Origin: Mastigias papua
Taxonomy: Eukaryota > Cnidaria > Scyphozoa > Rhizostomeae > Mastigiidae
Direction of reading: 5' to 3'
Assembly: GCA_964019165.1 (NCBI GenBank)
Contig: OZ025286.1
Location: 10,224,688 to 10,288,687, forward strand
Length of the DNA stretch: 64,000 nucleotides
Both the position numbers and the translations under genes were made by a program. The notes beneath the pieces were generated by a model. The model was given only the letters and a program-made list of their open reading frames with translations, ran no database searches and was not told the origin of the DNA. Below, piece by piece: positions 7,191 to 54,948 of the stretch (positions within the stretch are counted from its first letter, which is position 1; each line of letters begins with the position of its first letter).

Positions 7191-7520
7191 AGGCCTGTGC
7201 AAACGATCTAACATTTCGCCTAACATTTGACCTAACATCATGTTAGGCGAAATGTTAGATCGTTTGCACACCTTGTTAGGGCTCCTAACATAATGTTTTG
7301 CAATGTTGGGCGATGTTTGATCAAGATCAAACATTTCACCTAACATTTCATTGTTCTCAATTTGTTGGTTGAAATGTTAGATCGTTTGCACGCAAGTCTA
7401 ACATTGTTAGGCGCGCGCACGCGCACTGACTTCTTTATTCGCGCCAAATTTTTCGCTCACGTTGTTTCGTTGTCGACAAGTAAAGTAAGCCCAGGTTTTG
7501 CAAACACTGATAAGTTAAAG

Positions 7521-8513
7521 ATGAACGATTCATCACACAATTACGAAGAATCAGATGAATATCTCGAAGATGCCAGTGATGTTGATGAGAGAGAGTTTGT
7601 TGAAAGTGGATCTGAGGACGATGGGGAAGCTCGTAGACAGTTTACATATAGAGAGAGATCCCAACTGAAAAGAATAAGAAACAGTGTAACGGACGAAGGC
7701 TTAAAAGAAAGAAGAATGAAGATTTCTTACAATCATCATCCACAGCAGGTACAATTAAAACCCACAAAGCAGATAAAGAAATGGGATTCCAGAGAAACTT
7801 CTTCTCTTATAGAACTCATTGAGCAAAGGCCTTGCCTATGGAATGTTAACGACCGGACCTATCACTCCAGAGTAGAAAGAGAAAGGGCTTTGAATGAAAT
7901 TGGAGATCAGATTGGAGTTTCTGCTGCAGAATGCAAATCAAAGGTTGCAATTTTGAGGGGGCAGCTTGGAAGGGAAATGGCTAAAGTAGTCAAAACAAAG
8001 TCAGGGCAAGTTACAAATGACCTGTATAAACCGAGCTGGATTTTCTGGGACCAGCTTCAGTTCCTTCGTCCAGTTCTGCAGCCAGGCAAAAGTAAAGATA
8101 ACTTTGCTTTGCCCAATGAGTCCTCTTCACAAGGTACTGAAGATGCAGTTGCTGAAAAGGAAAGTACTTTTAAATCAACCCCCCATAGTAGAAAGAAGAA
8201 AAAGGGAATCATTGAAAAGAAGCAAGAGATGCTTGAAACCTGCATAAATGTGCTTAAGGAGCAGCCCAGGGAAAATGGCAAAGAACAATGCAACTTTTCT
8301 TTTTATGTGGCAGACAAGTTGCAAAAATTTGATGGAAAGACAAGGGCCATTGCTGAAAAAAGGATATGTGATATCCTGTTTGACATAGAGATCAATGATG
8401 TTTCATTCCCATCCAGAAATGAAACTGCTTGGTACAATCAGAACTATTATGGAGGAAAGATAGATCAAGATAATGCTCAATACAGTTTTATGACAATGTT
8501 GAAATCACCATAA
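7521..8513 (+). CDS. Harbinger MADF/Myb-like DNA-binding protein
   Basis: A 330-residue protein starting at the first ATG after the terminal repeat region; the frame is open further upstream, but only through inverted-repeat sequence. The N-terminus is very acidic. A MADF-type domain spans about residues 90-180 (SLIELIEQRPCLWNV, ALNEIGDQIGVSAAECKSKV, WIFWDQLQFL), followed by a basic Lys-rich linker. In PIF/Harbinger elements the second protein binds the subterminal repeats and carries the nuclease to the nucleus. That role is inferred from family. It converges on the transposase gene; the stop codons are about 730 bp apart. Confidence 0.88.
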   Translation: MNDSSHNYEESDEYLEDASDVDEREFVESGSEDDGEARRQFTYRERSQLKRIRNSVTDEGLKERRMKISYNHHPQQVQLKPTKQIKKWDSRETSSLIELIEQRPCLWNVNDRTYHSRVERERALNEIGDQIGVSAAECKSKVAILRGQLGREMAKVVKTKSGQVTNDLYKPSWIFWDQLQFLRPVLQPGKSKDNFALPNESSSQGTEDAVAEKESTFKSTPHSRKKKKGIIEKKQEMLETCINVLKEQPRENGKEQCNFSFYVADKLQKFDGKTRAIAEKRICDILFDIEINDVSFPSRNETAWYNQNYYGGKIDQDNAQYSFMTMLKSP

Positions 8514-9243
8514 CATGCATTAACTATTATATTTCTCTAGCAAAATAAATCTTTGTTCCAAGGATGTGGTCAATATTTATGATTGGGCTTGGGTAGCAAA
8601 AGAGCTTTTAAGCATAGGGGTGGGGTGAAAAAATCACATTTAATTATGCATATTTTATATAAGATAACTAAGTATTTTAGGTAAAATATTAAGCAAAGGT
8701 GTATCAAAAAACTGGCATCTTTAAATAAATTATGATTGTAATGCAGGCAACTGGAACTTATTCCAGCTAAAGCAAGTAAATAAACAAATAAGGTTCTTTG
8801 GGTTGTTTTCTATCATAAAGCCCTTCATGCAAATAATGCTAATAAACTTAATCTGTATAATTTCCATGTCTCTAGCTGTAAGAAAACTAGTTGCACTTTT
8901 ACAGTAACATAACACAAAGGTGGGGGTAGTTATTTCCTGTTTTCCTTAGGTGGTGTAATAAAAATTGAGTTAAGAAGATGCCAGGATAAAAATCTTTTTG
9001 AGGGTACACAATACCTTTTTCTCAGTTTTCACTCTGGTCACAAATAATTACTGCTGCCTAAGTATATATTGCTAGTCTTTATATGTATTAAAATTGACTC
9101 CATTGCCATGGAATAGCACCTTCATTACAGAAATATTCTTTGAAAATTTCTCTGATTTCCTTTGCATTGTTGCTAGAATTATGTCCTGTACTAGGTACTC
9201 TAATATCCAGCAATGTGCTTGGTGCATGGCCTGCTCTCCATAG
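8514..9243. other. Intergenic space between the convergent Harbinger 1 genes
   Basis: AT-rich sequence holding the 3' untranslated regions of both genes. An AATAAA at about 8544-8549, roughly 30 bp after the MADF stop, could serve as its poly(A) signal. No further coding signal is seen. Confidence 0.5.
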
Positions 9244-10290
9244 TTAAGGTGAAAGTGTTTCATATTTGTCTTCTCTGTCAGCCAAACCGGTAGGACAGTA
9301 TATTACTCTGGATTTGCTTTTTCTAAGGTAATTATGAAGGGTCAAAGCTGTCATTGTTACATCTTCTATTGTTTCTGGTGACAAGGCAATTGGTGAACGA
9401 AATATACGCCATCTGTTGGCAAGAATTCCAAATAAGTTCTCTGATATTCGCCTGGCACAGCTATGCCTGTAATTGTAGACTCTCCTCTCATCTGTCAGAC
9501 CAGCCTGTGGAAAGGGCTTCATCATATATTCCTTAAGTGCAAAGGCATCATCACCAACAAAAACATGAGGAACTCTGATAACTCCATATGGGAGACATTT
9601 TGCCTCTGGAAGACACAAGTCTCTATTTTCAATAGCATGGGCTAAACTGGATTTATTCCAGACACCACCATCAGAAATCCTCCCATTAGTCCCTATGTCT
9701 GCATAAAGGCATTCATAATCTGGACCAGCAATAGCAAGTAAGACTATTGAATGCATATGTTTATAGTTGAAATAATATGATCCTGAATTTACTGGGGGTT
9801 GCATGACTATGTGTTTTCCATCTATGGCTCCAACACAATTTGGAAAATTCCATTTTTTCTGAAATTCATCTGTGATTTTGATCCATTCCTCTGTTATTGT
9901 GGGGACTTTAAGGTACACTGGTGTGAGGTTTTTGACTACTGCAGCACACACTTCCTTAATAATATACGAGATAGCAGATGCTGATATCCTGAATTGAAAT
10001 TGAAGTGACCTATAGCTCTCACCAGTTGCCAAAAATCTAATTGCAAGAGTGAGTCTAGACTTGGCACTAATGACCGGATTGCCACCACTAATTTGTTTTG
10101 GGGTAATATCTTTTTCAATTTGTGACAACAAAAACAAAAGGTCCTCGTGAGACATTCTCATCATTTCCTTGTATCCTTGGCTATCTTCCACGCTCAGCTC
10201 TTTGATAATATTGGCGTCAAACCCTTTTTCATCTCTTCTTTTGATCCAATTTCTTTCCTTTCTTTCTTTCCTTCCTTCTTTCTTCCTCAT
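9244..10290 (-). CDS. PIF/Harbinger DDE transposase (HARBI1-like)
   Basis: A 348-residue protein of usual length for the family. Basic N-terminus, then a helix-turn-helix-like stretch (LTLAIRFLATGESYRSLQFQFRIS is the family's recognisable start), and a DDE_Tnp_4 core: first Asp in GAIDGKHI, second in VFVGDDAFAL, Glu in ISENLFGILANRW. All three catalytic residues are present with no stop or frameshift, so it may be active. It cuts and pastes the element with its partner MADF protein. Confidence 0.93.
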   Translation of the reverse strand: MRKKEGRKERKERNWIKRRDEKGFDANIIKELSVEDSQGYKEMMRMSHEDLLFLLSQIEKDITPKQISGGNPVISAKSRLTLAIRFLATGESYRSLQFQFRISASAISYIIKEVCAAVVKNLTPVYLKVPTITEEWIKITDEFQKKWNFPNCVGAIDGKHIVMQPPVNSGSYYFNYKHMHSIVLLAIAGPDYECLYADIGTNGRISDGGVWNKSSLAHAIENRDLCLPEAKCLPYGVIRVPHVFVGDDAFALKEYMMKPFPQAGLTDERRVYNYRHSCARRISENLFGILANRWRIFRSPIALSPETIEDVTMTALTLHNYLRKSKSRVIYCPTGLADREDKYETLSP

Positions 10291-10556
10291 CTTCCATTAA
10301 TTCCAAAACACACAAGACTGCCACAATTTTGCGTTTTCTTAGCTGTGACCATGAAGAAGCAGAGGACATTTTGGAACTGATCGCCTAGTTGTTGTCCCGC
10401 GCAAATTAAATCGATCACTGCACAGGCGCAAAATGTTAGGCTAAATGTTAGGTGAAATGTTAGGTTCGTTTGCACACTTAGCCAACATCAACAAACTTCT
10501 CATAGCAAAAGTTTGATGAAATGTTAGACCAAATGTTAGATCGTTTGCACAAGGCT

Positions 10557-28242: not shown

Positions 28243-29425
28243 CAAATAAAACATGTACTGTTCATGCCATCCCAGCTATGTATTTTCTTTCTAAATATTT
28301 CAAGAGGAGACTGTGACAATTTTATCTCATCATCAATGGTATTCCATAGCAGACTCCCTCTAAAGGATTGGGCGTTCAGTCCATAGCATTGCAAACTTAT
28401 TGAAGGGAGTTTGCATAATTCCTTTTTGCGGAGATTATATTGAACATCTGTTTTTACAAAAAAATTCCCATATATACTCAGGGTGTAGGTGATTATGCGA
28501 TTTATTTACTTCAATCATCAATTTATGGAGGTTCTTAGTATGTGTTGTCTTTGTATTACCCCTTTCAAGAAGTTCCTCATATGTCTATTCATAGTCTCTA
28601 TATAGAATCCTCACTGCACGCTTGTGAGTTCTATCAATTTCATTATTCGCAGTTTTGCTACAAAATAGCCAGATCAATGGGCAATAAGAAAAGTTCAATA
28701 ATATGACTGGATTTAATAGTAACTTTGACTTATCATTTCCTAAATATGGTCTTAGTCTACCAAATGCATGCAATGTTTGGTTGGCCTTCTTACATATTCC
28801 ATGCACATGGGTGTCAAATTTAAGGGCATTATCAATGGTCACTCCCAGGAGTTTAACACATTTGCTTTGTGTAATCAGTTGTCCATTAATGTTAAGTCAT
28901 AGTTTATTTTGTCTTTTAAGTCCTAAGAACATTATTTGGAATTTTGATGGATTGGCTCTCATGCCATTAGCAGTATACCATTCCAATACTTCTTGTAGAT
29001 CTCTCTCCAATTTAACAATAACTGAGTCTATATTTGAATCACACAAGTAAATAGTTGTGTCGTCCGCAAATTTACATATTTCCGACTCCAGATTCCTATA
29101 AAATAGGTCATTTATAAAAGTGTGAAAAGCAAGGGGCAAGAACAGAGCCCTGTGGTATACCAATAGATATATATTTTGGCAAGGTATAAGTGGATCCTAT
29201 TTTGACTCTTTGAATTCGATTTGACAGGTAGCTATAAATTAGTCTTAGAGGTTTTCTATTGAATCCATATGCTTCTAATTTCACTATCAATAAATCGTGG
29301 GGTATGCAATCGTAAGCCTTAGATAGGTCCATTAGGATTGTTCCCACTATACCTGTCATGTGTAGATGTTTTTTCCATTGCTCTACTACTTGAAATAGAG
29401 CATGTTGTGTCCTATATCCCTGTTG
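28243..29425 (-). pseudogene. Non-LTR element B, RT C-terminal half
   Basis: Minus-strand fragments in order: 29425-29108 with GYRTQHAL, MDLSKAYDCI (motif A) and GIPQGSVLAP (motif B); 29163-28897 with KFADDTTIYL (catalytic F-ADD) and NPSKFQIM; 28842-28585 with CPLIWLFCS and a THKRAVRILY thumb/tail. Remnants continue to about 28243. Frameshifts separate all three. The right side is cut by the transposon at 29426, and the upstream part resumes at 34047. Jockey/CR1-like by motifs. Confidence 0.82.
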
Positions 29426-30330
29426 GGTCATTCCACATTAAAAGGGGACAGAATTTTTGAAAATGTAACCCACCAGCTCAGAATTGGCTAATTTTTGGTG
29501 AGGATGTAATTTTTCATGAAACAAATATAACCTGAAAATTTCAGCTCAATATATCAACCTGTTCCAAAATTAGATCCTATTGAAATTTGTGCCATTTTGG
29601 GCCAATTTTCGCCCGCTCGTTTATGCGCAGTTTTTGGACATTTTGTTGTGTTAATATTTGATGAAGTAAACAGAATTGTACCATGCAAGTTTCATATATG
29701 GGCAAATCAATGCTCAGGAACTCAAAAATGACATCAGAAATATGCTAAAACAACTAGAAGAGCACTTAAATGGGTGGTATCCAAGGACCACTAGTTTCCT
29801 TAGCAACGGAAGTGCCTCAAAACTTGGCACATTTTGATGGTGTAGCGAAAATGTGATATCCTCCAATTTTGTCATAGAGGTTTCTGAAGGTCTAAAGCTA
29901 TTCTCTACAAAAACTCACAATAGGTATATCTCCATATCTGGAGATATCTTGATTCAAAAACTCACATTTTGAGGAAGAGTTTGACAAAATTTTTGTTGGC
30001 TCATCAAGAGTTTTAGCAGTCAAAGCACCTGTGTTTTTAAGTTTGGAAACAAGTATATTCTATGTGGATGTCAAAATTCTTTAAAATAGTGAAGTAGGTT
30101 GTCGTATATAAATAAATAAATAAGTATATATAGTATATATGTATATATATATATATACTTCTGCTCAGTTGAAACTTGAAACTCACTTCAAGAGCTTTTA
30201 GAATTTCCTTTCCGAATATCCGCTTGGAGTGCTCTATATTGCGCATTCACCTTTTCTAAGGTAGTGATAATTGCCTACAAAGTTACGTATCATATATTGA
30301 ACAAGCGGAAAGTTTCATTGTGCCAATTGA
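29426..30330 (+). repeat. Left terminal inverted repeat (905 bp)
   Basis: Pairs with 33151-34046. It includes a TA-rich microsatellite (about 30100-30160) and a palindromic-looking TATCTCCATATCTGGAGATA (29931-29950). A short open frame in it (30037-30246, minus) recurs identically at 33235-33444 (plus) and is not considered a gene. Confidence 0.95.
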
Positions 30331-30476
30331 CTTCAATTTGCAATTCACCGATTTCCGGAAAACAAATTTGATCTGCAATAAAGCAGACGTTACAACGTAG
30401 GGGAGACGGATATTATATATGCGCACGGAAATGGTTTTGCTGACGACATTTAGAATCAGAGAGTCTTTAGTTGAAC

Positions 30477-33098
30477 ATGAACATGGATGTCGTTGAGAGA
30501 GTCTGTGCTATTGGTAACATTTTGGGTGATCCTTGTCATAAGTTATCATATTGTAGGAAAATAGGTTTAAAGAAGATTGAACTGTTTGATTCTGAAATGC
30601 GTGAAGTTATCATGTGGCGGTCTGGTTTGTCAGTGTTAAACGTTGGTGCTGAAATTTGTCTTCATCACGAGCAACTACTGACAAGCAGATTTGCAAGTAT
30701 GCACATGAAATGTTTTGATCCGTTCAAGAGCCATAGAAAGAATGTTAAACGTGGACTTGCAGAAATTACACTGAAATTTGCAAAAGAGATGACGCAGTAT
30801 GGCTTTAGTGGTGTTATTCCGGGCTATAAAATATGTCCGTCATGTAGAATGAAATTAAAGGGGCAAATTGGTCGGTATGAAGCTGAAGGGGATCTGTCAG
30901 GTATTGATGAGGAAGAATCAAGTTTTGAAGATGCATTTGAACATGATATGTCAGCCAGTTCGAGCAAGGATTCCATAAACATTTCATTGGGCGAACTTGA
31001 TGTGTCACCATTGAAGCTTCATTCTATTCCTCCTCACTCAAAAGTGATTCAAGGAAAGAGAAAGCTAAAACAAGCCACAGCTGCCTTTTCTTCTAAAGTC
31101 GCGTCTGCTTTGCAACTTCAGAGCTCAGATTTACTTGAAGAGAAAGAGCCGACAAAAACATCTGAAACTTTGGAGCAAGATTCTAACGACTTGAAACACC
31201 TGGTTAATCTAATGAAGGAAAAGGTCAAAGCTTCTACCAGAAGAAGAAAAATACAAATTCTGACGTTAACTCCTGAATCTTGGTCAATAAGAAAGGCTGC
31301 AAAAGAATTTCAAGTATCGAAAAAGACCATTCAAAAGGCCCGGAAATTAAAGGAAGAAAAGGGTATTATGGCATTGCCTGATTTAGTGACCAGTAAAAAG
31401 CTGGACAGGCGTATCATTGATGCAGTTCATGCAATGTACAATGATGATGAATATACGAGGCAACTTCCTGGCAAAAAAGACTATGTGAGTACAGCCAAAA
31501 ATGTTCATGTTTCCAAACGGCTCATCTTATGCAATCTGAAAGAGCTTTATGCAATTTTCAAAGAAAAAGATCCGGAAATTACCATAAGTTTCTCAAAATT
31601 CGCAAGTTTGAGACCAAAGTGGTGTGTACCTGTAGGGCCAAAAGGAACTCACTCCATATGCGTATGTACCATGCACCAGAACTTGAAGCTGATGCTGGGG
31701 GCAGTGAATTTTGAAAACAATTACCATGAATTTATTGACATGATTGTTTGTGATAGTGAATCAAATAAGTGCATGGTGCACAGATGTGAAAAATGTCCAG
31801 GCATCAACAATGTCAAGGCAACTCTTAAACGAGTGTTCTTCGACAATAATGATGATGATAGTGAAAGTGACTTAGACAGAGATATCAGCGTCAGTGAGTC
31901 TATAACATATAAGCAATGGACTACTAACGATAGAGCTGATCTGGTGTCTCTAACGACCACAGTTGGAGAATTCATAGAGGATCTATGTGGAAAGCTAGAT
32001 ACAATAACTGCACACTCTTACATAGCCAAAGCACAGGCAAATTATTTGAAATCATTAAAAGAGAAGATGGGAAGGGATGAAGCAATTGTACTTGGAGACT
32101 TTGCGGAAAATTATAAGTTTGTTGTGCAGGACGAAATTCAGGGCTATCACTGGAACCAAAAGCAGTGCACCTTGCATCCAGTTGTAATTTACCACCGCTG
32201 TACTCAAGATTCTGATCTTGCATCAAGATCATTATGCTTTATATCGGATGACTTGGATCATGATGTCTACATGGTGTACAGTGTCATTGAAACATCAGCA
32301 AAATATATTAAAGAAAACATCTCTGCTGGCATCACCATGATTCATTATTTTTCTGATGGTTGTGCAGGTCAGTATAAAAATTGCAAGCATTTTTTAAATT
32401 TATGCCACCATCAGGAAGATTTTGGAATAGGTTGTCAATGGAATTTTTTTGCGACATCACACGGAAAATCCCCATGTGATGGTATCGGGGGAACAGTTAA
32501 GAGAGTGACTGCAAAGGCAAGTCTACAACGATCCATGGAAGATCAAATTCTAAACGCAAAGCTGATGTTTGAATATTGTGATCAGGAAATATTGGGAATC
32601 GAATTTTTCTATTTAGAGAAATCAAGGGTAGACCAAACAAGAAAAAATCTCGAGGAACGTATGGGGCTGGCAAAAACAATTCCTGGAACGAGAGGCTTCC
32701 ACCAGTTCATACCTTTAACACAGAATAGAATTGGTGCTAAGAGAGTTTCAGAAGACAAGCAATTTGCTTTGATTTTTAGTTTTACTACTTCACCAGCTGA
32801 CCAGACTTTGGCACATAACTTGACACCAGGAAGCTTTGTGGTTTCAATGTATGACAGTCATCATTGGTTAGGAGTTGTTTCTCAGATTGACAAAGACAAT
32901 GAAGATGTGCAAATAAAATTCATGCACCCACATTTCCCTACGCATTCATTTGAGTGGCCATCCAGAGAAGACGTATGCTGGGTGCCTGATATTAATGTTT
33001 TGGTAGTAGTTGATACGCCAGTGCCATCAACCAGAAGTGGAAGACAATACCATCTCAGCACCAGTGATATGTCAAGAATCGAGGAAAGTCTTCATTGA
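30477..33098 (+). CDS. Putative transposase of unassigned superfamily, 873 aa
   Basis: Start chosen at the first ATG, 146 bp inside the left repeat; a TATTATATAT lies about 60 bp upstream. No stop or frameshift. Order: Cys/His cluster (about 59-122: ICLHHEQLL, CPSCRMK); acidic/Ser-rich linker; helix-turn-helix-like segment about 263-293 (SIRKAAKEFQVSKKTIQKA); second Cys/His cluster (about 392-441: HSICVCTMHQ, CMVHRCEKCPG); then conserved-looking acidic blocks GDFAENYKF (Asp541), YFSDGCAGQYKN (Asp627) and HGKSPCDGIGGTVKR (Asp668), a candidate RNase-H-fold triad. The C-terminus has a Tudor/SH3-like stretch (SHHWLGVVSQIDKDNEDVQIK). Role as transposase is inferred from position and motifs. Confidence 0.8.
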   Translation: MNMDVVERVCAIGNILGDPCHKLSYCRKIGLKKIELFDSEMREVIMWRSGLSVLNVGAEICLHHEQLLTSRFASMHMKCFDPFKSHRKNVKRGLAEITLKFAKEMTQYGFSGVIPGYKICPSCRMKLKGQIGRYEAEGDLSGIDEEESSFEDAFEHDMSASSSKDSINISLGELDVSPLKLHSIPPHSKVIQGKRKLKQATAAFSSKVASALQLQSSDLLEEKEPTKTSETLEQDSNDLKHLVNLMKEKVKASTRRRKIQILTLTPESWSIRKAAKEFQVSKKTIQKARKLKEEKGIMALPDLVTSKKLDRRIIDAVHAMYNDDEYTRQLPGKKDYVSTAKNVHVSKRLILCNLKELYAIFKEKDPEITISFSKFASLRPKWCVPVGPKGTHSICVCTMHQNLKLMLGAVNFENNYHEFIDMIVCDSESNKCMVHRCEKCPGINNVKATLKRVFFDNNDDDSESDLDRDISVSESITYKQWTTNDRADLVSLTTTVGEFIEDLCGKLDTITAHSYIAKAQANYLKSLKEKMGRDEAIVLGDFAENYKFVVQDEIQGYHWNQKQCTLHPVVIYHRCTQDSDLASRSLCFISDDLDHDVYMVYSVIETSAKYIKENISAGITMIHYFSDGCAGQYKNCKHFLNLCHHQEDFGIGCQWNFFATSHGKSPCDGIGGTVKRVTAKASLQRSMEDQILNAKLMFEYCDQEILGIEFFYLEKSRVDQTRKNLEERMGLAKTIPGTRGFHQFIPLTQNRIGAKRVSEDKQFALIFSFTTSPADQTLAHNLTPGSFVVSMYDSHHWLGVVSQIDKDNEDVQIKFMHPHFPTHSFEWPSREDVCWVPDINVLVVVDTPVPSTRSGRQYHLSTSDMSRIEESLH

Positions 33099-33150
33099 AC
33101 ACAATGAAAGTAACTTATCAATGTCACATTGCTTTGCTGCTGTACATACA

Positions 33151-34046
33151 TCAATTGGCACAATGAAACTTTCCGCTTGTTCAATATATGATACGTAACT
33201 TTGTAGGCAATTATCACTACCTTAGAAAAGGTGAATGCGCAATATAGAGCACTCCAAGCGGATATTCGGAAAGGAAATTCTAAAAGCTCTTGAAGTGAGT
33301 TTCAAGTTTCAACTGAGCAGAAGTATATATATATATATACATATATACTATATATACTTATTTATTTATTTATATACGACAACCTACTTCACTATTTTAA
33401 AGAATTTTGACATCCACATAGAATATACTTGTTTCCAAACTTAAAAACACAGGTGCTTTGACTGCTAAAACTCTTGATGAGCCAACAAAAATTTTGTCAA
33501 ACTCTTCCTCAAAATGTGAGTTTTTGAATCAAGATATCTCCAGATATGGAGATATACCTATTGTGAGTTTTTGTAGAGAATAGCTTTAGACCTTCAGAAA
33601 CCTCTATGACAAAATTGGAGGATATCACATTTTCGCTACACCATCAAAATGTGCCAAGTTTTGAGGCACTTCCGTTGCTAAGGAAACTAGTGGTCCTTGG
33701 ATACCACCCATTTAAGTGCTCTTCTAGTTGTTTTAGCATATTTCTGATGTCATTTTTGAGTTCCTGAGCATTGATTTGCCCATATATGAAACTTGCATGG
33801 TACAATTCTGTTTACTTCATCAAATATTAACACAACAAAATGTCCAAAAACTGCGCATAAACGAGCGGGCGAAAATTGGCCCAAAATGGCACAAATTTCA
33901 ATAGGATCTAATTTTGGAACAGGTTGATATATTGAGCTGAAATTTTCAGGTTATATTTGTTTCATGAAAAATTACATCCTCACCAAAAATTAGCCAATTC
34001 TGAGCTGGTGGGTTACATAGGTGTCCCCCTTTGACATGGAATGACC
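33151..34046 (-). repeat. Right terminal inverted repeat (896 bp)
   Basis: Reverse complement of the left repeat. The only visible length difference (9 nt) is in the outermost 40-50 bp. Confidence 0.95.
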
Positions 34047-35110
34047 CTGTTGTAATCCATAAAGTAATAGGGATAGCATACCAGCCGTGAAATGGTTACT
34101 TTGTTCACTGATGATTCATTCAAATATTTTTGACAAGGCTGTTGGGATACTAATAGGTCTATAGTTGACTATTTGACATGGATCCCCCTTCTTATATATT
34201 GCACATGCATCTGCCTCTTTTGGTTTGTCCGGAAAGAAACAGTTATCCATAGTTGCATTTATGCTGTCAGTTAAGTATGGGCAAATCACCTCTTTCGCTT
34301 CCTGTATAATTTTTTTTGTAAATTATCACTACTTGGTTTGTTAGCCTCTAATGCTTCTATTTTAGACATGACATGCAACAAAGTCACAAACCTAAATTCA
34401 AATGTATGGCCCATTTTTACCTTTCTGTTTATGGCAATAATGCTTGGGGGATTTTTATACTTTGCCACAGCTATGTCAATCTTCCTGTCAGGGGTCTTAT
34501 GTATCCCAACGTCTTTAAATGTAGGATCTAGACCTAGACAGTTTTTTGTAGTCACAAAATGGGAGTTAGGGGATTCAGCAATTACTTTATCATCTGTTAT
34601 AATAGTATCATCCTCAATGAGAACAGTCATGCTGACAGTCAGATTTCTTTGTTGTCTTACTTTTTCCCAGTTTTATTCGCCTTTTTCTTTAGTCTACTTC
34701 TTTTCATAATTGCTCGTCTCATATCAGCTTGCACATGGGGCTATTTATTCCCTCTACCAGCCCTTTGCTTCAATGGTGCATGTTCCTGTACCACACTTTC
34801 TATGACCGACTGTAAATCTTGATAGTCAGCATGAGTGGTTTCCCGAAGTTTATTATGTAGGTCTCTTTCGAAATCTTCCTTTTGGAAATTTCTATATTCT
34901 CAATATCTGATAATCTTAGGGGACAACTTTACATAGATTGATTTTAGTATAGTGTAAATCATATCGTGATGATCACTGAAGCCAGTTTTCGACAATTGGC
35001 TTTTCATGAAGGATTGTTTCATATTCGTCATTGTTAACTGATTGCTCGGAAAGGATGAATCAAGCGTACTCTCTGCAATAACTATTATATCGCGTGTGTC
35101 TTTCATCATA
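34047..35110 (-). pseudogene. Non-LTR element B, endonuclease remnant and RT N-terminal region
   Basis: 35109-34900 encodes the start of an apurinic-type endonuclease (DIIVIAESTLDSSFPSNQ) fused directly to its C-terminal end (KTGFSDHHDMI), so the middle of the domain is deleted. 34630-34286 encodes the linker and early RT region (VTTKNCLGL, HKTPDRKID). Further RT remnants run to the transposon boundary at 34047. Stops and frameshifts are frequent. Confidence 0.7.
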
Positions 35111-37713: not shown

Positions 37714-40713
37714 TTAGCTCTGGCTCAGTGCATCGACATCGTTTTTTGATAGCCGTTTGAAGGCATTGAGGGAGGTTGCCACTTTAGCTTCCCTACTCAA
37801 GCTGTTCCAAAGTCTGGCCCCTCGATACGAGAATGACTTCTGACCAGCGCTAGTTATTAAAAGTGGCAATTTTAGATCTGTGTCAGTTGAGCGTAGTACA
37901 CGACCGTTGCTTCCTGAACATCTTGTGAACAGATTTCGCATGTATTCGGGTGCAAGCTCATTCAGAGATTTATAAACCATTGTTGCTGTTTCTTTGTGAA
38001 TAAGACTGGAAATCGTTGGCCAACCTAGGCTCTGGATGAGTGGGGCCGCTGATGCATCATATCCACTATTCATAACTATTCTCGCAGCCCGATTTTGTAC
38101 CTTTTGCAGGCTGTCAATTTTACGCTTACTGCAATTACCCCATACGGAGCAACAGTAACTCAAATGAGGCTCAACCAAGCCTCGGTACATTTTTGCAAGA
38201 ACTTCTGAAGAAAGATATTTCTTCGAATATTTGACCAGTCCAAGAGCTTGGAGTGCCTTTTTCTTTACCATATCAATATGGTCATCCCATTTGAGTTGAT
38301 TGTCAACTTGAACACCAAGATATTTAAAGCTACTAACGATCTCAATATTATCATTATTTATTACAAACGCTGGTTGAGCATCAGGCTGGCTTTGGATCTT
38401 ACGGATATTTGGGCCTGAACCAACAATCAGAGATTGGGTTTTAACGACATTTAATGAAAGCTTGTTTCCATGCAACCAGTCCTGTAAGTTCGAAATATCA
38501 CAGTTTAAGTCATGTTGAAGATCAGCGAGACTCATAGAGGAGTGCGATATTGTAGTGTCATCTGCGTACATACTGACATGCGCTTTTTCAAGCGAAAAAG
38601 GTAAATCATTTATGTAGATCAGAAACAAAAGTGGACCAAGACAGGAGCCTTGTGGGACACCACAATTTATATCACTTATACTAGATGAAACACCATTGAC
38701 TTTGCAAAATTGCTTACGGTTGTTAAGATACGAGGCGAACCAATCGTGTTCAAGACCATTTACACTATGCTTTGCAAGTTTTTGCAAAAGAATGTTGTGG
38801 TCAACCGTATCAAATGCTTTCTTTAGGTCAATGAAAATCAAACCAGTATATTCTCCTTTGTCGATGTTAAGGTACCAGTCGTTCGTGTTTTTCATAAGAC
38901 AGGTAACAACGGAGTGTAAGGATCTAAAGCCAGACTGATGCCGGTATATAAGCTTATTGGTGTTTAAGTAATCATAAAACTGATCGTACAAAAGTTTCTC
39001 AAAAAGGCGCGAGATGAGTGGTAAGACAGAGATGGGCCTATAGTTAGATCTGTCATCCCTTTGACCACTCTTAAAGATAGGGGCAACATGAGCTATCTTC
39101 CAACAATCAGGGAACTTCCCAGAAAATAGCGATAAATTGAACAAATCACACAAAGATCCTTTAATAATGGGCAAAGCTATCTTCAAGAAGAAGCTTGCAA
39201 TTCCATCATTACCGGATCCATGGGAAGTTTTCATTTTATTTAATGAAGCTATTAACTTATCCGTCATGATTGCTGAGAAGGCAAAGCTCGATGAAGGCCT
39301 ATCAATAGAATATTCATTCGACAAGAGAGGGTTAGGTTTGTCAGGAATCTTCTTACTTAGCCTATCTCCAATGGTGCAAAAGAACTCATTCATCGATGAT
39401 GCGATCTTAGCCGAATCAGAAATATTCTCACCATCAACCTTAAGAGAAGCTACAAATGTTGTGCTCGATTTCTTATTAATGATTTGATTGATTGTTTTCC
39501 ATGTTTTCTTCAGGTCACCTTGAAACTGGGTGATTTTTTCAGAGAAATATTCACGTTTTAGTTGCCTGTTTAAGTTGTTGGCTTTATTCCTGATTTGCCT
39601 ATAGGACTGCATTAATAGCTTAGAATTACTTCTAACAGCCTTGATTTTCAATTTGTCCCTTGTCTTCACCAGTTTGAAATAACTGCTATTAAGCCAAGGC
39701 GTGAATTTATCGGACACTCGTCTGTGTAATGTTGGTGCATGCTTCTCAAGGATAAGTGAGAACATTCTGGTCCAGCCGTTAACCGCCTCATCAATATCCT
39801 GAGCCTGCGATACAAGTCCTTCCCAGTCAACCTCAGAAAGATCAGATAGGAAAGCTGTTTTATCAAAATTTTTTAACTGTCTAGATGTTATATATTTGTG
39901 CTCCCTTTTCACCCCTCCATGGAGCTTTCTGACACAATAGATAAGGTAATGATCACTGAGACAAGTCTTAAATACCCCAGAATCAGCAATGTTTGATTGA
40001 TTAGTGGTTGCAATATGATCAATTAAAGTAGATGTTTCAACAGTGACCCTAGTATGTTCTTTTATGACCTGACTCATGCCGAAAAGATCATACAGTTCAC
40101 GTAAATGAGAAATGTAGCTCAGATTAGCATCTGTGGTAGAAAAATCACTAAAGTCACAATTGGTATCACCTAGGAGTATCATTTCCTTATTTTCCCCGTC
40201 AAAATACCTTAAATTCTCTTCAAGGCATTCAAAACAAGAAACTGGACTATTTGGGGGCCTATACCACCCAAGGATGATAAATGGAAGCGAGTTTTTAGGC
40301 TCCACCTCGATACAAACTAGCTCAAGTGATTTATTAGGAAAATCCTCTCTAGGTTTGAAATTGACTGTATTCTTTACGTAAAGTGCTACACCGCCTCCAT
40401 TTCTATTCCTATCACATCTTTTAAGAGAATAATCATCGATGGCTATAAGTTGATCCTCGACTTTATCATTTATTTTTGTTTCATTTACGACCAAGATGTC
40501 TATCTTCTTATTTTCAACCAGCAACCTGATTTCATCTATCTTTGGGATGAGACTATTGACATTCAGTGAGGCCATTACCAAGCCTTTCTTGCGACCAAGG
40601 GGGTGAATATGGGGTTTCTTATTGGCACTACTGTTAGTTTCTTTGGCCTGAGTATCAGTTTCACAGGCATTTGACTCTAGACCCCCCTCGACACTGCTAT
40701 CTCCGGCTAATTG
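37714..40713 (-). CDS. Non-LTR D ORF2: apurinic endonuclease and reverse transcriptase
   Basis: The first ATG is at 40575, giving 953 aa. The frame is open back to the ORF1 stop (another 46 codons) with no AUG, so readthrough or reinitiation is plausible. Endonuclease blocks: SLNVNSL, VVNETK (Glu), LGDTNCDF (Asp; Thr replaces the usual Phe) and CLSDHYLI (SDH). RT blocks: NYRPISVLPL, FIDLKKAFDTVDH (A), GVPQGSCLGPLLFLIYINDL (B), MYADDT (C) and FKYLGVQVD (thumb side). The C-terminus has the usual VQNRAARIV and SYRGARLWNSL. Confidence 0.95.
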   Translation of the reverse strand, partial: QLAGDSSVEGGLESNACETDTQAKETNSSANKKPHIHPLGRKKGLVMASLNVNSLIPKIDEIRLLVENKKIDILVVNETKINDKVEDQLIAIDDYSLKRCDRNRNGGGVALYVKNTVNFKPREDFPNKSLELVCIEVEPKNSLPFIILGWYRPPNSPVSCFECLEENLRYFDGENKEMILLGDTNCDFSDFSTTDANLSYISHLRELYDLFGMSQVIKEHTRVTVETSTLIDHIATTNQSNIADSGVFKTCLSDHYLIYCVRKLHGGVKREHKYITSRQLKNFDKTAFLSDLSEVDWEGLVSQAQDIDEAVNGWTRMFSLILEKHAPTLHRRVSDKFTPWLNSSYFKLVKTRDKLKIKAVRSNSKLLMQSYRQIRNKANNLNRQLKREYFSEKITQFQGDLKKTWKTINQIINKKSSTTFVASLKVDGENISDSAKIASSMNEFFCTIGDRLSKKIPDKPNPLLSNEYSIDRPSSSFAFSAIMTDKLIASLNKMKTSHGSGNDGIASFFLKIALPIIKGSLCDLFNLSLFSGKFPDCWKIAHVAPIFKSGQRDDRSNYRPISVLPLISRLFEKLLYDQFYDYLNTNKLIYRHQSGFRSLHSVVTCLMKNTNDWYLNIDKGEYTGLIFIDLKKAFDTVDHNILLQKLAKHSVNGLEHDWFASYLNNRKQFCKVNGVSSSISDINCGVPQGSCLGPLLFLIYINDLPFSLEKAHVSMYADDTTISHSSMSLADLQHDLNCDISNLQDWLHGNKLSLNVVKTQSLIVGSGPNIRKIQSQPDAQPAFVINNDNIEIVSSFKYLGVQVDNQLKWDDHIDMVKKKALQALGLVKYSKKYLSSEVLAKMYRGLVEPHLSYCCSVWGNCSKRKIDSLQKVQNRAARIVMNSGYDASAAPLIQSLGWPTISSLIHKETATMVYKSLNELAPEYMRNLFTRCSGSNGRVLRSTDTDLKLPLLITSAGQKSFSYRGARLWNSLSREAKVATSLNAFKRLSKNDVDALSQS

Positions 40714-40716
40714 TTA
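40708..40716 (-). promoter_or_regulatory. Candidate stop-codon readthrough site UAA-CAA-UUA
   Basis: The ORF1 stop TAA (40716-40714) is followed in frame by CAA TTA, matching the CARYYA context of tobamovirus-type readthrough. ORF2 is in the same frame with no further stop. Function is inferred; the sequence itself is certain. Confidence 0.6.
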
Positions 40717-42129
40717 ATACGAAAAAGATATAATTTTGTCTATAACGTTCATGGCTAGTTGGCTATCACCTTTGGGGTTGAGATGCAAACCTTTTCTGCC
40801 AAGATGACGTTCTGTTATGTTCTGCTGTCGTAGGATGTCGATGTTCATCGTTTTTAAGGCTCTGTTAAATTCATTCACTTTACCATTAAGATGTTTCTTG
40901 TCAGCACGTCTGATTATTTCAGAGACAATGACGTGGCAGTTGGGTAGCGACTTCTGAATCATGTCGATAAGCGATTTAATTCCAATCACCATTTGGTTTG
41001 CTGATAATCGATCAAGGTCGTTAGTACCCACCATCAGAATAATCTTGCTTGGCTTCTTCTTGATAAGAGGTTTGAGGTAATCATGCATATCTTTTATGGT
41101 GGAGCCTCTAAAACATCTCACTTTCGTATGATACCTACGACTAAGTGTTGTTTCGTTGATGTTTCCAACCATACTGTCTCCAGCTATAAGAACTGTATTT
41201 TTGGGCCAGATATTGTTTTGGTCATCATCCTGCTGAGGCATTTGGGAGGCATCATTTCTAGAGATTTCTTGGGACTGCGTTTCATTCAAAGATGCGGAGG
41301 CGGATTCAGTACTCTGCGGTGCAGCGCAGACGACGGATTCAGGAGCTGGTGAGGCCGTTGTTGTTTGTACAGGTACAGTCGTTGCATCATGTTTTTCATT
41401 GACTTCATTGTGTGAAATTTCTTTCGATTTTTTCTTTTGTTTTCCCTTTCTTTTTATCTTCTTTGTGGCTCTATTGTTATTTTCAACAATCTCGAGACTT
41501 TCGTACACAATAGGTGATTTCAAAGGGGCATTCTCTTTGCTTACAATCGAGGTAGGTTCCTTTGTCTTTTCTGAGTTGTTTACCTTCCCATCTGCGGAGA
41601 CTCCATGGCCCAATTTTAATTTCAGAGAAAAATTTTCCTCCAGTAATGCGATGTTTGTGCTGCGTTCAATTTGAAGTAGACTTTGCAACTCGACAACTGA
41701 TTTCGCAAGTCGCTCAAAGCTAATATAGATATCTGCAGGAGGAGACTGCACGGATCTATCAGGCATGCATGGTGATTTATCGAGAGTGTTGGTAGCTGCT
41801 GAGAACAGTGGCCTTCGAGGTGGCGTTGAGACTCCGTCAAGAAACTTGAAAAATGAATCATTGAAGCAAGCCTCCTTAGCATTCTCTTCTTCATGTCTGG
41901 CATTAATTGGTTCGCCTTCTGCATCTTCCGGTAAGTCTATTGAGTCTGCCATCGCAGCATCCCTGTCTTCATCAGACTTCAGTTTCAGTAGGCCCTGATT
42001 GATCACCGTCAAGAGTCTCGAAGCAAGCTCTTCTTTCTTTCCTAGTATCGATAGATTTCGTTTCGAAAGCTCGGCTTTTAATTCGCCAACCTTTAATTTC
42101 TTTATTGCAGCGGCATTTAACTCGCTCAT
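40714..42129 (-). CDS. Non-LTR D ORF1: SAP domain plus SGNH-like esterase domain
   Basis: 471 aa. A SAP-type DNA-binding helix pair spans residues about 8-44 (LKVGELKAELSKRNLSILG). The middle is low-complexity and Lys-rich (KKIKRKGKQKKKSK near 225). The C-terminal SGNH/GDSL-like domain has VLIAGDSMVGN (Ser), MVGTNDLD (block III) and RKGLHLNPKG (His). The Asp expected three residues before that His is Lys here. Esterase-bearing ORF1 proteins are known in CR1-like elements and are thought to act in RNA/membrane association. That role is family inference. Confidence 0.9.
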   Translation of the reverse strand: MSELNAAAIKKLKVGELKAELSKRNLSILGKKEELASRLLTVINQGLLKLKSDEDRDAAMADSIDLPEDAEGEPINARHEEENAKEACFNDSFFKFLDGVSTPPRRPLFSAATNTLDKSPCMPDRSVQSPPADIYISFERLAKSVVELQSLLQIERSTNIALLEENFSLKLKLGHGVSADGKVNNSEKTKEPTSIVSKENAPLKSPIVYESLEIVENNNRATKKIKRKGKQKKKSKEISHNEVNEKHDATTVPVQTTTASPAPESVVCAAPQSTESASASLNETQSQEISRNDASQMPQQDDDQNNIWPKNTVLIAGDSMVGNINETTLSRRYHTKVRCFRGSTIKDMHDYLKPLIKKKPSKIILMVGTNDLDRLSANQMVIGIKSLIDMIQKSLPNCHVIVSEIIRRADKKHLNGKVNEFNRALKTMNIDILRQQNITERHLGRKGLHLNPKGDSQLAMNVIDKIISFSY

Positions 42130-42249
42130 ACTTATTTTCTTTCAAAATTTACTGGAAAACAATTCAGTAAGTTTAGCATCTACCGCAACGTGCGCCCACT
42201 TCCTCAATCCTCCAATCAGGCCTCAGAAATCTAGTACTAAATTTTCTTA

Positions 42250-51508: not shown

Positions 51509-51785
51509 AGCCCTCTTTACATGACACTTCTTAACCTAGGGTGAACCTAGGTTGACCCCAACCCAAGTTATTTTTCTACGTGTAAATCGACTCAACCTGG
51601 GTTCACCCCAGGTTAAGAAAATCCTACTCGAGAGTTGGGTTGAACCCAGGTTCACCCCAGGTTGAGTGTCGTGTAAATCGAACTGGGGCGAACCTGGGTT
51701 AAGGAAAGTTAGGGCGCATGCGCGCATCTATCAATCTTGTGGAAGGGCGCCAATTTACGAACGCCGTATTGAAGTTGTAGATAAA

Positions 51786-52748
51786 ATGAATGTGGAAAAC
51801 ATGGAAAACCTCAATGCACGAGGAATATTGTGGGAGGATGAAGAAGTACTAGCATTGATACACATTTGGGGTGACTCTAGGATTCAACAAGATCTTGATG
51901 GCTGTTCTCGAAAACGCCCTATCTTTGAAAGAATTGCAAAGCAGCTTAAGGAACAAGGATTTGTTAGGAGCTTTGCTCAAGTTAGAGAGAAAATCAAACA
52001 ATTGAAACAACGTTACAAAAAAATCAAGGATAGCAACAACCGTTCAGGGAACAAGAGGAGAACATGTCCATTTTATAAGGAACTTGACGATATTTTGGGA
52101 GATAGGCCTATTACAAACCCGCCGAAGTTGCTTGATAGTATGGAAGCTGAGGAAGAGCATTGTTTAGAGGAAGTTGAGAGGAATTTTTCAACTGAAGAGA
52201 AAGAAGAATCTTTAGAAGATGAAGCAACTGAGGAATCTTCGATACTAGATGAAGCAACTGAGGAATCTTTGGTATCAGAGGAAAGTAATTTGATCACCAG
52301 TCCTATGGATCCGGGTAGCTCCACCACACCAAAGGAAAACTTTAATGAAGGCAAGGAGAAGTCCAGGAGAAAACCAAAGGACAAGGTTTCTAATAATTTT
52401 GGAAAAAGCAAGAAAAGGACAAGACGTGAAACATTTTTATCAGAAATCTGCAGCATGCTAAGTGAGCAGCAAAAAATATCAGATGAGAGATTTTTTGCAC
52501 AGGAGGAAGAAAGGCGAGTAAAAGAGGTTGAAGAAGAAAAGAAAAGAAGAAAAGAAGAGCAAGATCATGAAGTTTATATGATGCATTTTATTGGCAATAT
52601 GTTCATGCAAGCAGCTGCTTCCCTAAGTCAATACAGCCAAGTCAATGCCCAGGCAACACCTAACCATTACCCATTTCATGCTACAAGGCCTCAACAACAA
52701 ATTGACACAGATAGGGAGGATGAAGCATTGTATGAAAACTTATTTTGA
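51786..52748 (+). CDS. Harbinger 2 Myb/SANT-like DNA-binding protein
   Basis: 320 aa from the ATG of MNVENMENLNARG; the frame is open further upstream through inverted-repeat sequence. A trihelix/Myb-like domain spans about residues 10-105 (WEDEEVLALIHIWGD, FERIAKQL, FAQVREKIKQLKQRYKKIKD, CPFYKELDDILG). Then an acidic Glu-rich linker with two near-repeats (DEATEESSILDEATEESL) and a long charged coiled coil (RFFAQEEERRVKEVEEEKKRRKEE region). Likely binds the subterminal repeats for the nuclease. Intact. Confidence 0.88.
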   Translation: MNVENMENLNARGILWEDEEVLALIHIWGDSRIQQDLDGCSRKRPIFERIAKQLKEQGFVRSFAQVREKIKQLKQRYKKIKDSNNRSGNKRRTCPFYKELDDILGDRPITNPPKLLDSMEAEEEHCLEEVERNFSTEEKEESLEDEATEESSILDEATEESLVSEESNLITSPMDPGSSTTPKENFNEGKEKSRRKPKDKVSNNFGKSKKRTRRETFLSEICSMLSEQQKISDERFFAQEEERRVKEVEEEKKRRKEEQDHEVYMMHFIGNMFMQAAASLSQYSQVNAQATPNHYPFHATRPQQQIDTDREDEALYENLF

Positions 52749-53634
52749 ACTAACAACAGAAGCATAATGCACCCCTAACAAAAGAAAATGATGCTCAGAG
52801 TACAAGCTACAAGTTATAAAATGTCTATAAAGTTTATGTTAAAGGATACAGGGTGGGCCTGAAGCCAGTGGTGTAGAGTTAGAGGGGGGGTTCAGCCCCC
52901 TAATTGTTTTCTGTATACTATCATAAGTATTGCAAAAATGACACAGCAGAGTTCTTTCATTTGTGAACAGGCTTCTGCCAAAGAGATACTTGTCATGTGC
53001 TGATAGTACACATGCTACCATTTCACTTCTGCAAGCAGAATTCAAATTACAACAAAAGGTAACAATAGCAATGACAGCAACAAGGGCTGGCCACCTAGTT
53101 GAGCCCCCCCCCCAGTTATTAGTTCAACTCTACACCACTGTCTGAAACTTTTGGAAAAGAAAAGTATATTTAAATTGTCAGATAATACTTTGAAGTGCCA
53201 GGGACTTTCTCAGTTATGCCCCTCATGTCTAGGAAATATAGTTTGCATCCAACTGTTTTATAGGGCATTTTTGTGAAATGAGCAAAAGGATAACCAGCAA
53301 GTAATGTTTTCTTGGAGATGATTTTGTGGCAAGGAAATTAAACTTATGGGCTTATATTCAGCACTGAAAATGCAAAAAAGCTGAGTTACTAATTATTCAT
53401 ACTGGTATAGTCAGGGACTAGTATATAGGTTACAAAGATTGCAAGGGTAATAGGTATAGATTTGAGAGAAATAACCAGGGAATAATAGCTGTTTTTGAAG
53501 AAATTATGGGAGAAAAATCCTTAAATCCACTCTGTACCTTGTGTTATAAATTAGGACATAAAGAATTGATTATGTTATAGGAGACAAAGTCAATAATCAG
53601 AAAAAATAAACTTAACAGAACTAGAAAGTTCTTC
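52749..53634. other. Intergenic space between the convergent Harbinger 2 genes
   Basis: Contains the MITE at 52866-53140. The rest shows no coding signal. Confidence 0.5.
52866..53140. mobile_element. hAT-like MITE (275 bp) inside Harbinger 2
   Basis: Ends CAGTGGTGTAGAGTT are inverted, followed inward by a G-run (left) and C-run (right). The flanking octamers CCTGAAGC and TCTGAAAC match at 6 of 8 positions, as expected for an aged 8-bp duplication. No coding capacity. Confidence 0.75.
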
Positions 53635-54948
53635 TCATTGTACACTTTCAATATCAATGGTTTGAAAGTATCTTACAAGTGCATTTCTGATTGCTTGCCC
53701 ATTGTCAACATTTTCATTTGCTGTATATTGCTGGTCAAAAACACTGGAGTCTGCAGATTCATTCACATTTGCCATCAATTCATTGTTAAATGCATCATCA
53801 AATGCCTCACAAATGTTATGTAGAGTGCAACATGCAGCAACCACATCATTTATCTTACTGTGGTCTGCTTCATTCTGCTTCAACAAGCACCTCCACCTTC
53901 CTTTAAGACGACCAAATGCATTTTCAACAACCATCCGTGCCCTACTGAGGCGATAGTTGAACTGCAGCTTCTCAACTGACAATTTGCCATTGTCGGGGAA
54001 TGGCTTCATAACCCATGATAACAAGGGGTATGCAGCATCAGCAATAATAACGACAGGGACCTTTACTCCGTGAATATACTTGGAATTGTGTGCTGAGAAT
54101 AATCTACCACTCATACCTTTTTCATACATGCTAGAATTGGAAAACACTCTTGAATCATGGACCTTCCCTGGCCATCCAACATTTATTTCTGTAAACCTGT
54201 ATTTACTGTCAACAAGCCCTTGCAGAATCACTGAATACCATCCTTTTCTATTATAATAGGCAGCATGGTATTCTCTTGGTGCTTTTATTGGTATGTGGGA
54301 CCCATCTATTGCACCAGCACATTGTGGAAATCCCCATCTTTCCTCAAAATCTGCTACTACCTTGTCTAAATCAGCTCCAACTGGAAATCTAATGAATCTT
54401 GGCATCAGGTTCTCTACTATCAAGCCAGCAACTTCCTCACAAATTGTACAAACAGAACACTCAGAGATACCAAAGAGATGGGCAATAGTATTGTAATAAG
54501 AACCAGTAGCAAATCTCCAAAGAGCTACTGCAATACGTTTTGGGACTGGGATGGGTTTTCTCATAACTGTGCCTTCTCTGTAAAGTTACGGCTCTAATTC
54601 ATTGCAAATAAAGTCAAATGTTGCTTTTTTCATCCTGAAATTCCTTAACCAATCCTTGTCTTTGAAGCTGAGCGTTACAATGGCATCCCACCAGTTGCTA
54701 CTTCTTGCTTTGCACCATAGTGTTCGTTCAACGGGCAAGGGGTGATAAAGAGCGCCAAAAATCTTTGTCAACGCTAATTTACTCGTTTGGCGTCTCACAC
54801 TCAAATAGTTTGCCCACCGCTTTTTGGACGCAACTTTCCGTCTTTCGATGCGCCTTTTCCTTGCTAATACAGTGCGTCGTCGCCAAAAATAAACCAGCAT
54901 CAAACATACTCTCAATAAAAATATCTTTGCTTGCATATGATCCGCCAT
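53635..54948 (-). pseudogene. Harbinger 2 DDE transposase with one nonsense codon
   Basis: One frame from an ATG at 54948 to 53635, broken only by TAA at 54586-54588 (CNELEP-stop-LYREG), where family members usually have Tyr. Core residues are present: GAIDGSHIPI (Asp), VVIIADAAYPL (Asp) and RMVVENAFGRLKGRW (Glu). The N-terminal part has the basic leader and NFRMKKATFDFIC. A protein starting at MRKPIPVPKR (54564) would retain the whole catalytic core. Confidence 0.88.

Follow-up and report, generated by a model that had tools for sequence, protein, structure and literature searches.

A probable DDD DNA transposon in Mastigias papua from a lineage matching no named superfamily among those tested

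Whether a 4,621-bp unit in the genome of the scyphozoan Mastigias papua is a mobile element, and whether its transposase belongs to any named superfamily, are the questions raised by a 64,000-nucleotide stretch of contig OZ025286.1 (positions 10,224,688 to 10,288,687, forward strand; hereafter the window). A first-pass annotation, made from the letters without database searches, had read the unit, at 29426-34046, as an intact and recently active DNA transposon with a transposase that it could not place. Our analysis indicates that it is very probably an autonomous cut-and-paste DDD DNA transposon, of a lineage that matches no named superfamily among those tested.

The unit has perfect 10-bp inverted tips, with GGTCATTCCA at 29426 and TGGAATGACC ending at 34046, exactly where the annotation had set its ends, and a single gene lies between two arms (Table 1). 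The arms, earlier put at about 900 bp each, are fully identical over their inner parts, and this identity stops short of the ends, where the outer 37 nt on the left and 28 nt on the right pair only in parts. Identical inner arms with differing tips suggest that the arms were recently homogenised or that one served as template for the other, for example during repair via a hairpin that they can form, or else that the assembly is in error. No further copy was found within the window. Between the window protein and one from a public contig (P0001), 6 of 782 aligned residues differ; P0001 may come from another copy, from an allele or from a different assembly of this element. The element was probably active recently, as the annotation had proposed, because its open reading frame (ORF) is intact, its arms are identical and P0001 is so little diverged.

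The element lies within a reverse-transcriptase pseudogene, the remains of an older mobile element. When the flanks were joined with one copy of the flanking repeat (4,627 bp removed, equal in the 6-bp and 8-bp readings discussed below), one continuous minus-strand reverse-transcriptase frame was restored, with a single stop codon in its reverse-transcriptase part, and we therefore regard the insertion as clean. Frame restoration by itself would be expected by chance in one case out of three. Homology running through the junction is the stronger argument: across it, the restored frame aligns at 31% identity (E 4.8e-23) with the intact reverse transcriptase that the window carries at 37717-40713. 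These observations bear on the idea that a domesticated or other host gene lies, without being mobile, between inverted repeats made by chance or by assembly. Fully identical arms with differing outer tips are a pattern that assembly error could imitate; against this, a direct repeat stands exactly at the tips, the target frame is restored upon removal, and many relatives of the protein fall in multi-member clusters. We consider a host gene scarcely credible here.

The 6-bp duplication CTGTTG that had been proposed stood in part. Both copies are present, and the direct repeat actually measures 8 bp, CCCTGTTG; it becomes six only when the outer GG..CC is assigned to the element. At the composition of the window, the chance of a match is 3.4e-4 for 6 bp and 2.3e-5 for 8 bp. 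The symmetry of the tips in this one copy favours the 6-bp reading.

The encoded protein carries the parts that the annotation had listed, namely two Cys/His clusters, three acidic blocks, a helix-turn-helix-like segment, and a Tudor/SH3-like tail that was recovered in the predicted model. The helix-turn-helix matches Pfam HTH_23 at residues 254-292 just below the cut-off (E 2.5e-5; 24.4 bits against 24.6), and all Pfam matches to this protein up to E 10 belong to five helix-turn-helix-type families. NCBIfam matched the start of IS481-type transposases at residues 258-314 (E 5.4e-4, far below cut-off), and PHROGs gave weak matches, the best being to an unnamed family over the helix-turn-helix region 260-355 (E 2e-4). 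Conservation was counted in 112 aligned proteins, the denominators being the rows that span a site. Ahead of the core, residues 395-441 likely form a zinc knuckle: C397, C425, C432 and C440 are invariant, H400 and C437 are found in 111 of 112 rows, and zinc would be bound through these residues.

The three presumed catalytic residues are all Asp in 89 of the 92 rows that have letters at all three sites, the exceptions being P0023, P0051 and P0069. The second and third are separated by 40 residues in 90 of these rows and by 41 in two, while the first and second are 82-87 residues apart in 89/92. In an alignment of a second branch of the lineage, the Ulp1 branch described below (n=20), no sequence departs from Asp at the second or third site, and conservation of the first Asp is at least 90%. 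Two further acidic residues near the triad, E544 (106/109) and D552 (97/110), are conserved too, and the choice of triad therefore leans on the fold as well. The core is predicted to be RNase H-like, with the fold of mariner transposase and retroviral integrase, and D541, D627 and D668 fall at the places expected from strand and helix order, consistent with the annotation's suggestion of a transposase. The nearest solved folds by VIA were DDE/D transposases and integrases, and no family in the VIA lists ranked above them. The element thus shows the features of the general DDE/D cut-and-paste class: three acidic residues in a core predicted to be RNase H-like, terminal inverted repeats and, in one copy, a target duplication.

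We searched 5.8 billion proteins for relatives, covering word-sharing candidates only, and only part of the matches carry names. The window protein retrieved 119 proteins, P0118 retrieved 15, and a profile of 24 sequences retrieved 140. All matches with an organism given were animals, from sponge to fish, including Hydra, Rhopilema, Acropora, Paramuricea, Ephydatia, Nymphon, Pycnogonum, Argiope, thrips, Periplaneta, beetles, Cydia, Biomphalaria, Littorina, Lottia, Patella, Elysia, Styela and Neoarius. The family is widespread in animals and apparently unnamed. Its members are annotated as 'uncharacterized', 'ARL14 effector' or 'Cc8L18.2-like', the last after a bracovirus gene. Among the best 120 of the 140 relatives, a Ulp1 domain is present in 16, and a single one, P0204, has an OTU protease domain in place of Ulp1. 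Profiles built from the window's branch found the tail in 14/16 of the Ulp1 members and the zinc knuckle in 15/16, and the helix-turn-helix and N-terminal region in none of the 16, and the two branches align over 490 columns (hhalign). The lineage splits into at least two branches, one with the helix-turn-helix, to which this element belongs, and one in which many members carry Ulp1, with zinc knuckle, core and tail common to both. The tree was built from 90 of 188 non-redundant cores (from 210 with 85% of the core), taking named rows and then low P numbers, a sampling that under-represents the Ulp1 branch.

Origins outside animals were also considered and rejected. For a viral origin, queries A2, A4 and A6 found no relative in IMG/VR. 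The tip pattern occurred in three IMG/VR contigs, by a rough estimate no more than chance would give: in L001 and L003 the match lies within an ORF of a phage-like contig, and for L002 the inspection covered the letters around the match. A structure search of BFVD likewise retrieved nothing at E 0.001 or better. For a bacterial origin, GTDB contigs gave no relative with A4, and with A6 only L004, filed under the metagenome-assembled genome 'bacterium isolate Cli_8', which we infer to be host contamination.

This 4,028-bp contig, L004, provides a second set of ends. A relative is encoded there in an open frame of 705 codons, counted from stop to stop, and the gene is bracketed by a perfect 12-bp inverted repeat, GGGCAATTCCAT (at 206 and 3741), which is two edits from the tip GGTCATTCCAT, and which likewise starts GGG and finishes CCC. 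A perfect 12-bp repeat as near to the tip as GGGCAATTCCAT arose in 0/1000 dinucleotide shuffles of L004. Beside the gene, at 570-781 and 3338-3736 of L004, there are GTACGTCCAACAC repeats on both strands, which are possible transposase-binding sites.

Several observations weigh against the transposon reading or parts of it. The target duplication is seen in one copy only, and its length could be 8 bp. Foldseek retrieved nothing from PDB at E 0.001 or better with either model, and the fold evidence consists of VIA re-alignment of Foldseek candidates, in which alignments covering helix-turn-helix and core together have a root-mean-square deviation of at least 6.7 Å. In L004, GGGCAATTCCAT is one of three perfect 12-bp words common to the flanks, the others being AT-rich; some perfect 12-bp inverted repeat occurred in 285/1000 of its shuffles, and a copy within two edits of the tip in both flanks in 36/1000. 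No 6-bp duplication adjoins the L004 inverted repeat, which therefore supports common ends and not the length of the duplication.

The length matters for classification. If the duplication were truly 8 bp (CCCTGTTG), the right end would be at TGGAATGA and the element would belong with systems that duplicate 8 bp, for example hAT, P, MuDR or Zisupton. The measured direct repeat agrees with this, as does a weak P-element-like GBD match in 1 of 55 members (PF21788, E 0.0054; best 25 of 30 families). Such a reading makes the tips asymmetric, however, and the GGG and CCC of the L004 repeat speak for symmetric ends. The C/DxxH signature between the second and third catalytic residues, which marks hAT, P, MuDR, Kolobok and Dada (PMC9587614), is absent from the examined stretch of the window protein and present in only 4/92 rows, and Pfam detects no hAT-, P- or MuDR-type transposase domain in the window protein. 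We therefore regard the 8-bp reading as improbable, and continue with a symmetric element that ends GG..CC.

On this symmetric reading, a single product would bind the ends through its helix-turn-helix, and perhaps also through its Cys/His domains. The RNase H-like core, with its DD(40)D triad, would cut at GGTCATTCCA/TGGAATGACC and join the ends to the target by a staggered attack, most likely of 6 bp and less likely of 8 bp, and gap repair of the staggered target would yield the duplication. The Tudor/SH3-like tail may make contact with DNA or chromatin, in the way that integrases use their C-terminal domain. This copy, intact and with exact ends, lends itself to testing how the ends are recognised and what part the tail plays in target choice. 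If the lineage is indeed one more superfamily, missed by both Pfam and gene annotation, animal genes now bearing the labels given above include transposases.

Coordinates of all features are collected in Table 1. Elsewhere in the window lie two Harbinger-type units (7344-10296 and 51666-54585), each with a DDE_Tnp_4 transposase and an oppositely oriented MADF or Myb/SANT protein, and a long interspersed nuclear element on the minus strand (37714-42141) that encodes an endonuclease and a reverse transcriptase; a 475-aa ORF precedes it on that strand.

Table 1. Features of the element and its insertion site (window positions)
Feature	Position	Strand	Remarks
Reverse-transcriptase pseudogene, left part	29108..29425	-	broken by element insertion
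Left target-duplication copy	29418..29425	.	direct repeat CCCTGTTG; CTGTTG at 29420-29425 in symmetric reading
Left outer tip	29426..29462	+	GGTCATTCCA perfect at start; remainder pairs imperfectly with right tip
Left inner arm	29463..30330	+	868 nt, 100% identical to right arm
Transposase gene	30477..33098	+	873 codons, one uninterrupted frame, no internal stop
N-terminal Cys/His-rich region	30477..30851	+	residues 1-125; C120 in 81/91, C123 in 79/91 spanning rows
Helix-turn-helix, probable arm-binding domain	31236..31352	+	residues 254-292; Pfam HTH_23; helices in model
Probable zinc knuckle	31659..31799	+	residues 395-441: C397, H400, C425, C432, C437, C440
RNase H-like catalytic core (predicted)	31899..32603	+	residues 475-709
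First presumed catalytic Asp, D541	32097..32099	+	Asp in 107/111 rows (2 Glu, 2 gaps)
Second presumed catalytic Asp, D627	32355..32357	+	Asp in 98/105 rows (5 gaps, 1 Gly, 1 Asn)
Third presumed catalytic Asp, D668	32478..32480	+	Asp in 92/98 rows (5 gaps, 1 Tyr)
Tudor/SH3-like tail (predicted)	32814..33023	+	about residues 780-849
Right inner arm	33151..34018	-	868 nt, 100% complementary to left arm
Right outer tip	34019..34046	-	terminates in TGGAATGACC at 34046
Right target-duplication copy	34045..34052	.	CCCTGTTG; CTGTTG at 34047-34052; CC at 34045-34046 is the element's end in symmetric reading
Reverse-transcriptase pseudogene, right part	34053..34322	-	continuation of pseudogene broken by element insertion

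We then asked whether the family already has a name. Pfam, NCBIfam, PDB sequences and the protein searches yielded no strong match to any transposase superfamily that has a name. Pfam covers the transposases of piggyBac, Merlin, MuDR, hAT and mariner, and its coverage of Harbinger was seen directly; none of these domains was found in the window protein. As a positive control, Pfam detected both Harbinger transposases and a Gypsy integrase (rve) in the window. Across the 55 relatives (best 25 of 30 families), the lone transposase matches were the weak one to PF21788 and one to PF04986 (E 0.035), in one member each. A profile search of PDB sequences gave six matches up to E 10, the best at 0.85, with no transposase among them, and in the protein profile searches nothing named transposase stood among the matches listed, including the best 120 of 140. 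Repbase recognizes superfamilies by convergence in iterated profile searches at E < 0.005 (PMC4455052), and under this rule no named transposase was among the listed matches of the databases searched. In the open-licence literature no description of the family was found among the papers listed and motif strings had no matches, and the tip-string matches listed (best 20 of 112) were, by title, not on transposons.

That the element diverged within a superfamily that already has a name, most plausibly Sola, or else Novosib, Academ or Zator, has a low but appreciable probability. Sola (Sola1-3) has a large single transposase whose motif order may be similar to that of the element, with a putative likeness in the motifs at the second and third acidic residues, and Pfam may be without models for several of these four superfamilies. 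The profile searches described above argue against such membership, as does the duplication, which is 4 bp and AT-rich in Sola2 against 6 or 8 bp here; the Sola2 families described in PMC3627910 have inverted repeats of 12-21 bp, and the element's arms are far longer.

PMC9587614 gives a list of twenty eukaryotic DDD/E transposon superfamilies, and we compared Sola, IS3EU, Dada, Kolobok and Ginger with the element by their published descriptions and motifs (see also PMC3706591, PMC10294476, PMC2836005, PMC3985635, PMC11071193, PMC10871703 and PMC4298943). Kolobok duplicates TTAA (PMC9587614), whereas the element has CTGTTG. EnSpm/CACTA, Mirage, Chapaev and Transib are described as having CxxC and Hx3-4H between the second and third residues (PMC12730594), a pattern found between D627 and D668 in 0/92 rows.

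Membership in a superfamily known for 6-bp duplications, IS3EU/GingerRoot or Dada, we judge to be most improbable and already largely refuted. Both are described as making duplications of about 6 bp, against 6 or 8 bp here, and the helix-turn-helix shows a weak likeness to those of IS481 and IS3 transposases. IS3EU itself matches Pfam rve; this model detects the window's Gypsy integrase, and gives no match to the element's core at E 10. The termini of IS3EU are TA..TA, occasionally TG..CA in GingerRoot (PMC10045372), and Ginger1 is described with CCGG/CCGT targets and TGTNR ends, whereas the element ends GGTCA..TGACC. Its third presumed catalytic residue is Asp, in contrast to the Glu of retroviral and Gypsy integrases, IS3EU and Ginger. 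Dada resembles the element, on its 6-bp reading, in making 6-7-bp duplications, and has a CCCC zinc finger ahead of the core, but is described as having a DDE triad and small-RNA gene targets, with no terminal inverted repeats in the Dada-U6 and Dada-U1 families; the element is inserted in a reverse-transcriptase pseudogene and its inverted repeats are long. Finally, Tc1/mariner (Mos1) generally makes a 2-bp TA duplication (PMC10045372), whereas the duplication here is 6 or 8 bp; the element gives no Pfam mariner-type DDE match, and differs from Mos1 in having a probable zinc knuckle and a predicted Tudor-like tail.

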